Under the pieces are notes generated by a model. The model saw only the letters and a program-made list of their open reading frames with translations, was not told the DNA's origin and made no database searches. From positions 434,001 through 498,000 of the forward strand of contig NZ_VOBC01000002.1 in NCBI RefSeq assembly GCF_008369195.1: a stretch of DNA of 64,000 nt. The letters run 5' to 3'. Position 1 is the stretch's first letter; each line of letters opens with the position of its first letter. The DNA comes from Sporosarcina sp. ANT_H38. Its GTDB lineage: Bacteria > Bacillota > Bacilli > Bacillales_A > Planococcaceae. This document shows, piece by piece, positions 17,446-39,048 of the stretch. Made by a program: the position numbers and the translations under genes.

Positions 17446-17785
17446 TTGTCCCATTTCTAAGCCGCTTACGCTTTTCTATACTGTCCAGACTCCAGCGGCC
17501 AAACGCTCGGGTCATGAGTCGTACCAGCTATGCGGCAGAGTACGCCACTTCGCCGGTTCGCCTTATGCCTGCCGCGTTTAGGCAGGCCGCTTACGCTTTT
17601 CTATGTTGTCCAGACTCCAGCGCCTAGCTCGCTGTGGAAAAGATGAAAGCACCATAAGCCTAAGGGCGGCTTCCGGTGCTTTCCCTTTTTCCTTCACAGG
17701 CCTACAGGATGTAGGTCATGCAGCCTTTGCCACAGGAAGTGGCGTACTTAGGCTGCATTCCTTTGAAATAGGCGCTTAGGCTTTT
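17446..17785. repeat. Intergenic repeat cluster
   Basis: Two near-identical 37-base direct repeats (CGCTTACGCTTTTCTATRYTGTCCAGACTCCAGCG) start near 17463 and 17589. A third degenerate piece (GCGCTTAGGCTTTTCTATACTTTCGATTC) near 17772 overlaps the stop codon of the ABC gene. Two hairpins lie between: GAAAGCACC/GGTGCTTTC (17645-17683) and ATGCAGCC/GGCTGCAT (about 17718-17757). Either may terminate the ABC operon. No ORF. Confidence 0.6.
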
Positions 17786-33330: not shown

Positions 33331-36300
33331 TTATTTATTAATAATCATATAAAGTAATTTGACTTCATTTTCATTAACATTAAAATTAATTTCTAGCGCG
33401 TAGTATCCTTGGCTTTCATTTGAAAGATCTATTGTAAACTTATCTACGTTTTGTGCAAAGTCATTCACGTCTACTATTATCACTTCTCCAGTATTCGTTT
33501 TTTTCAATCTCACTTCTTTAGGCAGTACTTTACTCCCGTTGACATCTATTACGATGTTCTCTATTTCGGCAACTGGTCCTCTTGCTTCTCCCACTGCGAT
33601 TATTTGGGAATTGGCTGCTACGTTTTCCAATTTTCTTAATCCTTTAAGTGGAGAAAAATCGGTTACTTTGTTTCCATCAATATCTAGCTTAATTAAGTTC
33701 TTCGCATGCTCTAGCCCTTCAAGAGTAATAACTCGTCCCGTACGATTTGTTAAACTTGTGAGATTGTACATATCACCTAACGTTATGTTTCCAGTTAAAC
33801 CTAACGTTGATTTTATAGACTGTTCTAAGTATTTATCTTTTATTGTTATAACAGAATCTAATACCACTTCAAGTAAAGCCTCTGTTGCTTGTTTTAATTC
33901 TTCTACCGCCTGATCTACTGCTGTTTGCGTTGCTTCTTTGTTAACTAAAAGTTCTTCTGCTTTTATAACACTTGATTCAAATGCTTGTACACTTTCTTCC
34001 GTGTATACCTCTGTATTAAGTGCTTTCGCAACTTCAATAGCCTGTTCTAAATTATTCTTGTAAACTCTTTCTGAATTTGCGTAATGTAATTTAGTATCTC
34101 CCCACGTTGCATGGTCTGAACCATTTCCATTTCCACCATCCGTTACAACTAACTTCAGCTCTTTCGCTCCGTTAGTATCAATTTCAATAAATTTTTGTGG
34201 GTCTCTCGAGTTCATTAATCCACTTTCAAATTTCTTTACTCCGTCAACATATACTTCGAAGGTTACGGAACCAATAGAACCATGCATTTGTCTATCCACA
34301 CCGACAAATGACGTAAAGTAATCCGCTTTCTTATCAGTCAAATCATACACAATCGTAGTGTTAGAATGTGCTCCAATCCCTTTTTCATAAGAGACTTCAT
34401 TTCCAAGTTCGTCATTCAATCTTAATGTTTTCCAACTGATAGATTGATTTTTTAAAGGAGCAGCGTAACTGTTTTGCGTAGACTTCCAGTCAAAGTCAGA
34501 TAGATAGTTGTAATCTTCCATATCGACGACGGCTATTGTTCGGGTCTTAATAACTTCATTTCCATCACTATCTACTACTTTATAATTTATGTTGTACTTA
34601 CCAGCTCGCTCAAAGTTCACCTGATTTTCTCCAGTTACTTCTACATGAGAAGTTAGGTCTCCATCTTCCGCATCTATTGCTGAATAAGCTTCTATTACTT
34701 TGATTTCTTGTCCTACCTTAGTTGACACAGATTTCGGAATCGTAAGTTCAGGTGCATTGTTAAATAATAGAAACGCGGCATTCCCAAAACTTCCGTGATC
34801 CGAGGAAATTCCGTTACCTGCATTATCTATAACAAGTTTTAATTGACTTACATCTTTAACCGGAATTCTAATAAGTTTTGCAGCTGTATTATATTTCATA
34901 ATCCCACTGTTATAAACTTCTTTACCATCCGCTAAAACTTTAAATATTATACTTGAATTGGTTTGTTCCGCTATATTTCTATCAACACCTATATACGTTT
35001 CCAAGTATTCGTAGTTAGAATTTGTTAGGTTATAAACAATTTCAGCATTTGCATGTGTACCAATGCCTTTATCAAATTCTTTTACTTCCCCATTGACTAG
35101 TAATTTAATCGTACTATTCGTACTCGATTTGTCTTTACCAACAGTACCGTGATCAGTTCTTGCTGATTCCCAAGGTATGTCACTCACATATTTAGAGGCA
35201 CTGTACACAGCGATTCTTCTTGTCTTCATCACTTCATTTCCATCACTATCAGTGACCGAATACTCTATATTGTAAGTGCCTGTTTTGTTGACAGTGAATC
35301 CATTTTCCTTTACTTTAATATGCTCTTTTAAGTTACCATCTTCTGCATCAAATGCTTGTACATCCTTCAGCATATCAAACTCACTATTCAGTTTAACTGC
35401 TGTAATTTCTTCAGGTATCGTTAATGAAGGCTTACTAGAGTTTTTAACAAACTTAGCATCTGCCCACACTGTATGATCTGATTCGTTTCCATTATTATTT
35501 GCATCTGTCGTTACAAGTTTAATTTCTTTTGCACCAGTTACAGGGATTTTCACAAATTCATGCAATGTGTTTGCTTGGAAAACATCACTACCAAATTTCT
35601 TTTCTCCATCTATCCACACTTCAAATGTTGCTGATGATTTTTTTCCTTTCATCGACTGATCAATTCCAATATAGCTTTCAAAGAAATCATAACCTTCGCC
35701 TTCAATATCATAGACTACTTCCGAATTGGCATGTACACCAATCCCTTTAGCGTAGCTTGCAGCTACTCCTTGTCTAAGAAGCGTAATCGTTCCCCCGGCT
35801 GGTGCTTTATCTTTCTTTAAATCAGCCCAGCCAACACTTGCTAATTTGGAACTCTTGTCGGAAATATATGCGTAATCACTTACTACCGTAACTTTCGTTG
35901 TTTTTATTTCTTTTATATCTTCATTTATTACTTCATATACAACTTCATAGTTTCCTTTTTTCGCCACATCTACGTCGGTAGATTTCACAATTACGTCTTG
36001 CGTAATATCTTCCCCTTGATACGTAATTGCTTTTACATAGTCCATTGGGTCAAACGCTTGGTGTAATTTTAGCGTCACATGCTCTTCAACAGATAATACT
36101 GGTCTGAATGAATTAATTTCTACTGGTTTTAGTGCATTTAGTTTTTTATCATATACAACAACTTGATAGGTGTAGTTCTTGTTTGTATCTATATCTTTAT
36201 CTATAAAACTGTTAGAAGAAGTGAACCCTACAATTTCCCCATTTCTTACTATTTCATAACCTAAAAAGTCTTCTCTATAACTCTTGTCTAGTGTAAAACT

Positions 36301-38481
36301 TAACGTGTTGTTTTTATTTCCTGCATTAGAAACTAAGTTAACACCAACCGAAGCATTTTTATCTGCTATTCCATTTCCTTTATACCCTACTACAGAGTCA
36401 TTTAAATACCATAATTTGTCCGGCTTCGGATACTTGCTAGTCTTCTCTCTTGTTTCTTTGTTAACCATAAAACCATGTCTAGCAAAATGTTCGCTTAAAT
36501 CTATTCCTAGCACTTCAGAGGAGAATTCAACTAAATATTGTTGTTTAGAGCTATCTCCATCTATAAGCTGTATATTTTTCTCTCTATATACTCTGTTTAA
36601 TTTCCCCCAGTATCCTGGACTATACAATTCTATTTGCCAATAAACACCCAATTTTTCAAAAAATCCTTGATTACTATAATCTTTCAGGTTTTCTTTTAGT
36701 ACATTTTTATATATGTTATCTTCATATGGTATTCTCATATCTGTTTTGTTATAAAAAGTAGACATATATTGTGGTAGCATGTTATTCGTAGTTTCACCAT
36801 ATAATCTAGCATTTACATCCATTTTATGGCCTATCTCGTGGGTTAAGCCCCATGATGGTCCTCTAACTTCAAACGGGATTAAGTGGTTAGCCATAACGTC
36901 ATCTAACGTTCCGATATGATCACCCGCGGCGTACATATAGGCATAGGGTTGTGCAAGTCTTACGCTTTCTCTTATATATTTAGGGTCATGAACTTCGCTA
37001 CTTGCATCTAAACCATAATATCTAAAAAGCTCTTTCATATGAATATTGTAAGACTTAATTGTTTCTAATGGACTATAGCCATCTTCTATATATGTTTTGT
37101 AGGCACCAGTTGCTGTACCCGTCCACATAATATGATCACTCACGAATTCGAAAACATCTAGTACTTCTCTCTCTTCAACAATTGGGTGTTGCGCTATATC
37201 TTCATCTAATTTTTTCTTATAATCTATTAAGAATGATTTGAACTCTTTAAGGTCCGTATTTGCAGTTGCAAATGGTATTTTCGCGGCACCTTCAAATCGC
37301 AGTACCGGAGCTTTCCCTTGTTCTTCTTCAGTATATGGATTAATAATATATATACTTCCACCAGGTGTTACAGCTTTTTTATACCAGCCATCTTTTGCGA
37401 TTGCAGGTACTGTTATTATATTTTTACCAGCAACTAGATTAACATCTTTTCTCCAGCTTGACCAAGCACCTTCTTGTTGAGCAAAAGATAACTTAGGTAA
37501 TGGGCCTTTGGTGTTTGCATCAACATATACAGTTATTTTATCTCCTGGCTGAGCTGCAAATCCTGTTGGTTGAAGATTGTTGCCAAAACCAAATTTTAAT
37601 TTTTGATTTGCATGTTTCACCATATCCCCACGCTGTTCCGCTACAACAAGCGTTCCCTCTGTTTCGACTTTTCCACTTACTACAGCCCTAGCTAAATCTA
37701 AAATCTCTTTCAATTTAGATTCATACAAAGGATGGGTATTTGCTTCTATTTCTAGGGTATTTATCTTTTCTATGCTGTTATACGAATCGATGACTTTGCT
37801 CATTGTACCGTCTGTAAATAAGCTTTCTATTTTATCTGATACAGCATCTTCTTTGTAGAATATTAACTCTGAAGCACTTGCCCAGTCTTGATTTGCTTTT
37901 GTAAAGACAAATTTTATTCTCTTAAATTCTGTAGGCGCAAATTGGATTTCAACTACATCTCCTGTTGAACCTTTATATTCTCCAGAAGACACTAACTGGA
38001 AATCACCATCATCAGTAGTTGAGCTATATATTTCAAATTCTTGCGCAAAGCCCTTTCCTTTAGCACTTGATTGTCTGGCTGCATACACAATTCGATTTAA
38101 TTGCGTAGTTTTATCAAAATGAACGATTACCTCATTTTTAAAATCTGAAGTATTCGGTTTACCAGTCTCCCAATGTGTATTAAGATTTCCATCTATTGCA
38201 TACTCAATAAAAGAATTTGCATATCTTCCACCATTACCGGTAATCGACTTTATTGTGGATTTATCTATTTTAAATACTTGATTATAAGAATTAATAATTT
38301 CATCTTCATATAAATCAAATTTACTAACCTTTGCCTTATTCCTTTCGCTATCCCCACCTTCTATTGCATTTGTCACCTCATTCTCAATTTTCACTTCTTG
38401 CGCTAGAACTGTAACTGGTCCACTCAACATGTTAAAAATTAGTGTGGCGGATAGTATAATCGCCATAAACTTAGTCATCAT
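33331..38481 (-). CDS. Giant secreted M60-like metallopeptidase with F5/8C, NPCBM and Ig-like modules
   Basis: 1716 residues with signal peptide (AIILSATLIFNML; cleavage after VLAQ). Modules: F5/8 type C-like (about 70-215; IDGNLNTHWETGKP); peptidase M60 domain (about 290-690) with zinc motif HEIGH at 548-552 and a third ligand candidate Glu563, fitting HExxH-X(8,28)-E; a fibronectin-like segment; then three alternations of an Ig-like/DUF5011 domain with an NPCBM domain (each carries KGIG(V/T/A)H(A/S)N); a helical FIVAR-like segment; and a C-terminal leucine-rich-like tail. M60 enzymes cut mucin-type O-glycoproteins; NPCBM and F5/8C modules bind carbohydrate. No LPXTG or membrane anchor. ATG with GGGAGGG close upstream. 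Controlled by the c-di-GMP riboswitch in its leader. Confidence 0.92.
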   Translation of the reverse strand: MMTKFMAIILSATLIFNMLSGPVTVLAQEVKIENEVTNAIEGGDSERNKAKVSKFDLYEDEIINSYNQVFKIDKSTIKSITGNGGRYANSFIEYAIDGNLNTHWETGKPNTSDFKNEVIVHFDKTTQLNRIVYAARQSSAKGKGFAQEFEIYSSTTDDGDFQLVSSGEYKGSTGDVVEIQFAPTEFKRIKFVFTKANQDWASASELIFYKEDAVSDKIESLFTDGTMSKVIDSYNSIEKINTLEIEANTHPLYESKLKEILDLARAVVSGKVETEGTLVVAEQRGDMVKHANQKLKFGFGNNLQPTGFAAQPGDKITVYVDANTKGPLPKLSFAQQEGAWSSWRKDVNLVAGKNIITVPAIAKDGWYKKAVTPGGSIYIINPYTEEEQGKAPVLRFEGAAKIPFATANTDLKEFKSFLIDYKKKLDEDIAQHPIVEEREVLDVFEFVSDHIMWTGTATGAYKTYIEDGYSPLETIKSYNIHMKELFRYYGLDASSEVHDPKYIRESVRLAQPYAYMYAAGDHIGTLDDVMANHLIPFEVRGPSWGLTHEIGHKMDVNARLYGETTNNMLPQYMSTFYNKTDMRIPYEDNIYKNVLKENLKDYSNQGFFEKLGVYWQIELYSPGYWGKLNRVYREKNIQLIDGDSSKQQYLVEFSSEVLGIDLSEHFARHGFMVNKETREKTSKYPKPDKLWYLNDSVVGYKGNGIADKNASVGVNLVSNAGNKNNTLSFTLDKSYREDFLGYEIVRNGEIVGFTSSNSFIDKDIDTNKNYTYQVVVYDKKLNALKPVEINSFRPVLSVEEHVTLKLHQAFDPMDYVKAITYQGEDITQDVIVKSTDVDVAKKGNYEVVYEVINEDIKEIKTTKVTVVSDYAYISDKSSKLASVGWADLKKDKAPAGGTITLLRQGVAASYAKGIGVHANSEVVYDIEGEGYDFFESYIGIDQSMKGKKSSATFEVWIDGEKKFGSDVFQANTLHEFVKIPVTGAKEIKLVTTDANNNGNESDHTVWADAKFVKNSSKPSLTIPEEITAVKLNSEFDMLKDVQAFDAEDGNLKEHIKVKENGFTVNKTGTYNIEYSVTDSDGNEVMKTRRIAVYSASKYVSDIPWESARTDHGTVGKDKSSTNSTIKLLVNGEVKEFDKGIGTHANAEIVYNLTNSNYEYLETYIGVDRNIAEQTNSSIIFKVLADGKEVYNSGIMKYNTAAKLIRIPVKDVSQLKLVIDNAGNGISSDHGSFGNAAFLLFNNAPELTIPKSVSTKVGQEIKVIEAYSAIDAEDGDLTSHVEVTGENQVNFERAGKYNINYKVVDSDGNEVIKTRTIAVVDMEDYNYLSDFDWKSTQNSYAAPLKNQSISWKTLRLNDELGNEVSYEKGIGAHSNTTIVYDLTDKKADYFTSFVGVDRQMHGSIGSVTFEVYVDGVKKFESGLMNSRDPQKFIEIDTNGAKELKLVVTDGGNGNGSDHATWGDTKLHYANSERVYKNNLEQAIEVAKALNTEVYTEESVQAFESSVIKAEELLVNKEATQTAVDQAVEELKQATEALLEVVLDSVITIKDKYLEQSIKSTLGLTGNITLGDMYNLTSLTNRTGRVITLEGLEHAKNLIKLDIDGNKVTDFSPLKGLRKLENVAANSQIIAVGEARGPVAEIENIVIDVNGSKVLPKEVRLKKTNTGEVIIVDVNDFAQNVDKFTIDLSNESQGYYALEINFNVNENEVKLLYMIINK

Positions 38482-38519: not shown

Positions 38520-38544
38520 AAAAAAACTACTCCCTCAGAGTAGA
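38520..38544 (-). terminator. Riboswitch expression platform: intrinsic terminator
   Basis: On the minus strand, CTACTC-TGAGG-GAGTAG is followed by TTTTTTT, between the c-di-GMP aptamer and the SD of the M60 gene. An 8-bp hairpin, TGTGAGGT / ACCTCACA (38554-38579), lies between aptamer and terminator. Confidence 0.85.
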
Positions 38545-38605
38545 TTCGATTTGTGTGAGGTAAAGTTAAAAACCTCACATAAACAAAAAGTAAAATTCAC
38601 TCTTT

Positions 38606-38680
38606 GGCAACTGGCTGACATAGTTATAAACCTTAGTCCCTTTAGCTTTGCGTCCCTACATTTCTATAGGTTTGCCTATT
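38606..38680 (-). ncRNA. Cyclic-di-GMP-I (GEMM-I) riboswitch aptamer
   Basis: Read on the minus strand. P1 pairs GGCAA with the terminal TTGCC. The next stem is CCTATA-GAAA-TGTAGG with the GAAA tetraloop. The signature GGGACGCAAAGC follows directly, then GGGACTAAGG (tetraloop-receptor side) and GTCAGCCAGTTGCC. These are the conserved elements of the GEMM-I class as in Vc2. It sits about 125 bases upstream of the M60 gene with a terminator in between, so c-di-GMP should set read-through. Whether ligand turns the gene on or off cannot be told by eye. Confidence 0.92.
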
Positions 38681-39048
38681 TAGTTTTAGTTTTTTTATAA
38701 TATTAACACAATACGACATATTTCCACATGAATCATTTATACCCCTAAAGAATCAGGACCTTTGAACAACGTTATGTAAAATTTTTAACATAGTTCCACA
38801 TATATTATCTTATGATATATGTAGAAACCTCCATTTCAGCAATCATAAGTCGGAAAGAGAAAGAGCATTTCTATAATTTACATTTAAACTTAATAGAACA
38901 AAAGCTGAGACTTCTTCGATAATTGCGAGAAAGGACACTGATGCATCTCTGTTCCCATTAGTAAACCTAACTTGTGATATTCGGCTAGGTTGTAACAGAA
39001 AAAGCATATATAACTCTATTACTTCCATAAAAAACTTTAATAATTAAA
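38681..39048. other. Promoter region of the riboswitch transcript and unassigned DNA
   Basis: AT-rich. The promoter for the M60 transcript must lie just upstream of 38690 on the minus strand. A 61-codon minus-strand frame at 38843-39028 has no SD or recognisable product, and I do not call it. Confidence 0.35.

Follow-up and report, generated by a model that had tools for sequence, protein, structure and literature searches.

The window, by which we mean the whole 64-kb stretch of Sporosarcina DNA analysed here, carries on its minus strand a gene (33331-38481) for a 1716-residue homologue of the M60 (ZmpA/B/C-type) glycopeptidases, and upstream of it a leader with a c-di-GMP-I (GEMM-I) aptamer. 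The Rfam covariance-model search gave three matches above threshold in the window: this aptamer, a tRNA and a Bacillaceae-1 RNA, which belongs to an Rfam sRNA family (17701-17767, minus strand, 77.2 bits). The aptamer (38603-38686, minus strand) scored 81.4 bits against RF01051, with a gathering threshold of 35 bits and an E value of 1.9e-14, and the match is full-length, covering all 87 model positions (1-87). An earlier note on this DNA had proposed a GEMM-I riboswitch in the minus-strand leader and suggested a search with the RF01051 model as a check; the significant match bears out the proposal. The same note had taken GGCAA/TTGCC as the P1 stem. The Rfam model has a different pairing, in which GGCAA contributes its GC to a helix with the GC of GACGC and the GCC at the end has no partner. 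The GGCAA:TTGCC helix would be an alternative fold at best.

The equivalents of G20, A47 and C92 (Vc2 numbering) are G 38676, A 38649 and C 38607 on the minus strand. They were located by their place in the Rfam alignment, together with the distance of 27 nt from G to A that the available text of PMC11218506 reports for Bc1 and Vc2; the first C of the GCC was chosen as the C92 equivalent after C87 of Cd1 (PMC9262584, accessible portion). The presence of all three suggests an aptamer of the c-di-GMP type and not of the cGAMP type.

Directly 3' of the aptamer's GCC lies a switching strand, strand A (AAAGAGUG, 38598-38605, minus strand). Together with the last C of the GCC it can pair with UACUUUUUG in a local hairpin, H (38584-38606, minus strand; 9/9 pairs in the window). 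Farther downstream is an intrinsic terminator (38520-38543, minus strand), with the stem CTACTCTGAGGGAGTAG at 38543-38527 followed by seven T at 38526-38520. The 5' arm of the terminator, UACUCU (38542-38537, minus strand), is complementary to strand A as well and could form an antiterminator with it. A Shine-Dalgarno sequence, GGAGGG (38490-38485, minus strand), and the ATG start of the M60 gene at 38481 were read directly, and the terminator with its seven T thus stands ahead of the Shine-Dalgarno sequence, as the earlier note had it. A terminator scan of 1401 bases gave four sites (two inverted repeats, each on both strands) versus 0.8 expected in shuffles, and the same bases held six promoter-like sites versus 4.9 expected, a count too close to chance to single out a promoter.

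The further claim that the downstream gene encodes a secreted M60 peptidase of 1716 residues also held: the product matches PF13402 with 48.5 bits (cutoff 25.8), its HExxH motif is intact (HEIGH, at residue 548), and by eye its N-terminus is signal-like, so that secretion is predicted. Other domains above cutoff are F5/8 type C, NPCBM (three stretches) and Ig-like (three stretches); FIVAR stays under its cutoff (25.2 versus 29.2), and an internalin-like stretch lies near residues 1549-1629. Among solved structures, the product is closest in sequence to 7jfs (E = 6e-200), 7js4 and 5kdj; these three entries bear the name F5/8 type C domain protein, and we take them to be C. perfringens ZmpB. Further relatives are the glycopeptidases ZmpA (6xsx) and ZmpC (6xsz), and the solved pieces cover residues 63-790, 278-1237 and 1403-1701. 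On the basis of homology to these solved glycopeptidases, the product may cleave O-glycosylated protein; the label "mucin-type" used in the earlier note likewise expresses that homology. Compared with the solved ZmpA, ZmpB and ZmpC proteins, to which it aligns in sequence, the window protein differs in its host, Sporosarcina.

The closest named homologues of a protein encoded next to it come from Sporosarcina as well, the best with 91% identity. The source genome (4.63 Mb, 19 contigs) contains one M60 match, two GEMM-I aptamers and 13 GGDEF places. Its other aptamer (L002, contig C1, 275804-275889) precedes a gene for a methyl-accepting chemotaxis protein, and Bc1 of B. thuringiensis is placed before such a gene as well in the available text of PMC4933901.

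Association of GEMM-I aptamers with M60 genes

Within the genus, 7 of the 68 genomes have an M60 match, and 7/7 of these carry a same-strand GEMM-I aptamer 1.4-2.2 kb upstream of that domain. At the level of the order, 30 M60 places were found in 28 of 261 genomes. The long type (frames of 1001-2081 aa) has GEMM-I upstream on the same strand in 16 of 22 places, with an aptamer-to-domain distance that is again 1.4-2.2 kb, and none of the eight short enhancin-type places with strong profile matches (E < 1e-49; reading frames of 523-734 aa) is linked. We estimate that chance would place GEMM-I before an M60 gene about once in a thousand per gene, given a handful of copies per ~4 Mb.

For six of the 22 long M60 genes of the order, no aptamer lies nearby. 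Five of the six are in genomes without a GEMM-I match, and one (G245) is in a genome with GEMM-I elsewhere. A search for remnants of the aptamer or of the H motif in the upstream DNA available for these six genes found none; for one of them (L100) this came to 93 bases, and the genome that carries it gave no match to RF01051. That linkage is missing because c-di-GMP signalling was lost is an unsupported explanation, as the six genomes have 15-21 GGDEF places.

The survey was extended to the class, in which 30 of the 398 genomes drawn have an M60 match, the window's own genome among them. Fourteen of the 29 others were checked for GEMM-I, the remaining 15 being weak matches. M60 genes of a Paenibacillus-type family (f3) are linked in 4/4, and 10 of the 14 checked genomes are unlinked (G424, G290, G609, G308 and six with weak matches), G308 having GEMM-I elsewhere. 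Protein similarity gave eight loci in Clostridium and Romboutsia, three of which begin inside the gene; the aptamer is upstream in all five testable loci. Judged from the genomes compared, the pairing of GEMM-I with M60 is a conserved unit, and these comparative data on linkage make regulation of the M60 gene by the leader riboswitch very likely. In one Paenibacillus-type genome, two tandem c-di-GMP-I-GGC aptamers were seen ~1.2 kb upstream of a 16S-23S-5S rRNA operon (L089, G026:C1 727000-737000).

The expression platform of M60-linked leaders

We compared the platform in 25 M60-linked leaders, comprising 22 leaders and three added later. The order of motifs 3' of the GCC is alike in Bacilli and Clostridia: RAAGAGUR, a short loop and URCUUUUUGUU, from which L033 and L038 deviate. 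The strand A consensus RAAGAGUR is present in 22 of the 25 leaders, the exceptions being L081, L033 and L038. All 25 keep hairpin H (paired cells: 224 of 225), in which G is throughout the partner of the last GCC position (C-G in 24 leaders, U-G in one). Two columns of H have double changes, from G-C to A-U and from A-U to G-C.

Between strand A and the terminator's 5' arm, at least 6 of 8 positions are complementary in 25/25 leaders, a count that describes complementarity and not formation; among the 25, the antiterminator pairing has no clear compensatory change specific to it. Counted by eye, TACTC of the 5' arm is present in 22 of 25 leaders and GAGTA of the 3' arm in 16, and better conservation of the 5' arm is expected if that arm has a second partner. 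Because strand A has two conserved and mutually exclusive partners, H and the 5' arm of the terminator, control by transcription termination is likely.

These two partners also set the M60 leaders apart from other RF01051 riboswitches. The aptamer itself resembles theirs, with a full-length match well above the gathering score and no aptamer difference seen, whereas RAAGAGUR with its two partners is a mark of M60 leaders: the H motif occurs in 13/13 of these versus 2/51 of the other GEMM-I leaders examined. This count leaves aside 5 of 69 GEMM leaders that have no exact core, and the pattern misses variants of H such as L093 and L110. The two H-motif leaders without M60 are both in genome G114, one before a pectate lyase gene (L069) and one before a carbon-nitrogen hydrolase gene (L080).

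The aptamer, the terminator, the two exclusive complementarities with their conservation, and the gene linkage across Bacilli and Clostridia are thus established by sequence; that c-di-GMP binds, that transcripts terminate here in the cell, and which way the switch works are inferences. We consider it highly probable that this is a genuine c-di-GMP-I riboswitch, whose choice between terminator and antiterminator controls how the M60 glycopeptidase gene is transcribed.

Direction of the switch and alternative explanations

In the proposed mechanism, strand A, just 3' of the aptamer, would make the choice. Paired with its neighbour in hairpin H, it would leave the terminator free to form (OFF); paired with the 5' arm of the terminator, it would form the antiterminator, and transcription would proceed (ON). 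Binding of c-di-GMP would favour ON, and the enzyme would be produced in the sessile, high c-di-GMP state, in which it may bind and cut extracellular glycoproteins. We lean, with modest confidence, toward c-di-GMP turning the M60 gene ON, since the final C of the GCC is taken up by hairpin H.

Folding calculations with the Rfam pairs enforced showed how much hangs on this base. When the last C was engaged in the aptamer, the thermodynamic linkage favoured the antiterminator in 20/20 leaders, with a mean of -2.08 kcal/mol. When it was left free, the linkage was near neutral (mean -0.31 kcal/mol), with 11 of the 20 leaders on the ON side, 7 on the OFF side and 2 flat. The linkage calculation covered 20 of 22 leaders, L033 and L038 being left out. 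In an ensemble calculation with the last C free, antiterminator pairs went up in 12 of 22 leaders, went down in 8 (including the window) and were zero in 2; in this calculation the folded L033 and L038 leaders gave no antiterminator. The computed sign thus depends on a single nucleotide, the last C of the GCC. Naive folding with GGCAA/UUGCC as P1 pointed to ON for most leaders; it was set aside because that helix is absent from the Rfam model.

The opposite direction is the most serious alternative, and we regard it as a real possibility of somewhat less than even weight. Here the ligand would hold the aptamer's GCC, the antiterminator would be blocked and the terminator would win, as in Cd1 of C. 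difficile, an OFF switch whose antiterminator takes C87 according to the available text of PMC9262584. A duplex that reaches the first C of the GCC would favour such an OFF switch, and the best antiterminator duplex does so in 6 of 22 leaders (the window, L034, L038, L072, L082 and L093), whereas in 16 of 22 it ends before that C. The 8 leaders, the window among them, that lose antiterminator pairs with the last C free point the same way, against which stands the shift to the antiterminator in all 20 leaders with the last C engaged. For Cd1, adding nucleotide 88, which lies beside the ligand-pairing C87, lowered the KD from 1.9 to 0.25 uM, about eightfold (PMC9262584, accessible portion); this gain in affinity is a hint that the second C has a role once the ligand is bound. 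Precedents are found on both sides: in the accessible part of PMC6200980, six of seven responding class I loci of C. difficile, including zmpI, decreased with c-di-GMP, whereas the Bc2 adhesin switch, from a Bacillus, is ON in that of PMC4933901.

It is improbable that the aptamer is a relic, or an element competent for binding but without effect on expression, with the promoter governing the M60 gene. Bc1 of B. thuringiensis offers a parallel, a conserved c-di-GMP-I aptamer that binds its ligand in vitro and leaves expression in vivo unchanged, as reported in the available text of PMC11218506, and the six long homologues without an aptamer would fit as well. The joint conservation of aptamer, H and terminator complementarity from Bacilli to Clostridia, with double changes in H, is on the other hand something that a relic would hardly keep. 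Least probable of all, and by our judgement very unlikely, is a leader that acts mainly on translation or that senses 3',3'-cGAMP in some species: the G20 position is said to tune selectivity between c-di-GMP and cGAMP among cyclic dinucleotides (PMC9262584, accessible portion) and is A in 2 of 25 linked aptamers, L085 (G076) and L033 (a Clostridium sp. MAG), but it is G in the other 23, including the window, and the Shine-Dalgarno sequence of the window is found ~30 nt past the tail of the terminator and belongs to none of the conserved pairing strands.

Catalytic-core divergence and relation to known systems

The proteins downstream of these leaders were compared region by region with the window protein. 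Five of the 14 riboswitch-linked proteins compared (L086, L088, L102, L103 and L104) have a divergent catalytic core in the same scaffold, with 60-63% identity in the F5/8 region, 70-75% in the NPCBM/Ig region and 28-32% in the M60 core; L085 and L087 are 71-72% identical in the core. In a tree of the cores (23 rows), L086, L088 and L102-L104 are split off by a very long, fully supported branch, and the tree requires at least two changes of riboswitch linkage. Both core types carry the same kind of leader, and one genome, G244, holds one of each (L087 and L088). The simplest reading would be that the catalytic core was exchanged while the scaffold under riboswitch control was conserved; alternatively, the core may have evolved faster in one lineage. 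Tentatively, the aptamer, the two-partner platform and the ZmpB-like scaffold may form one inherited unit of Bacilli and Clostridia in which the core is exchangeable and an ON switch ties glycoprotein cutting to the sessile state.

Two published systems under class I riboswitches come close. ZmpI of C. difficile is a small enzyme of a peptidase family other than M60. It is a zinc metalloprotease that cleaves surface proteins and is under the class I c-di-GMP riboswitch Cdi-1-12, an OFF switch, in the accessible text of PMC6200980; the arrangement is like that of the window in placing such a riboswitch ahead of a zinc protease, and its direction may differ. In B. thuringiensis, the collagen adhesion protein Cap is under the c-di-GMP-I riboswitch Bc2, an ON switch (PMC4933901, available text); Bc2 resembles the window in having an aptamer of this class and an intrinsic terminator before a surface protein gene, and differs in that its target is an adhesin and that of the window a peptidase.

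The earlier note had called direct second-messenger control of an M60 protein unusual. With riboswitch control of ZmpI and Cap published, this is only partly borne out. A literature search found no description of c-di-GMP-I with M60 among the matches listed, as judged by title and start of abstract, most subscription journals lying outside its reach. The window adds a solid case to a known class of control, with a conserved platform and a broad M60 target family for which we found no earlier description.

With this conserved set of leaders, the ON/OFF logic of c-di-GMP-I riboswitches becomes testable through one competing base pair. The pairing of aptamer and M60 gene would link second-messenger control of sessile life directly to large glycoprotein-cutting enzymes in Bacillota of soil and gut.
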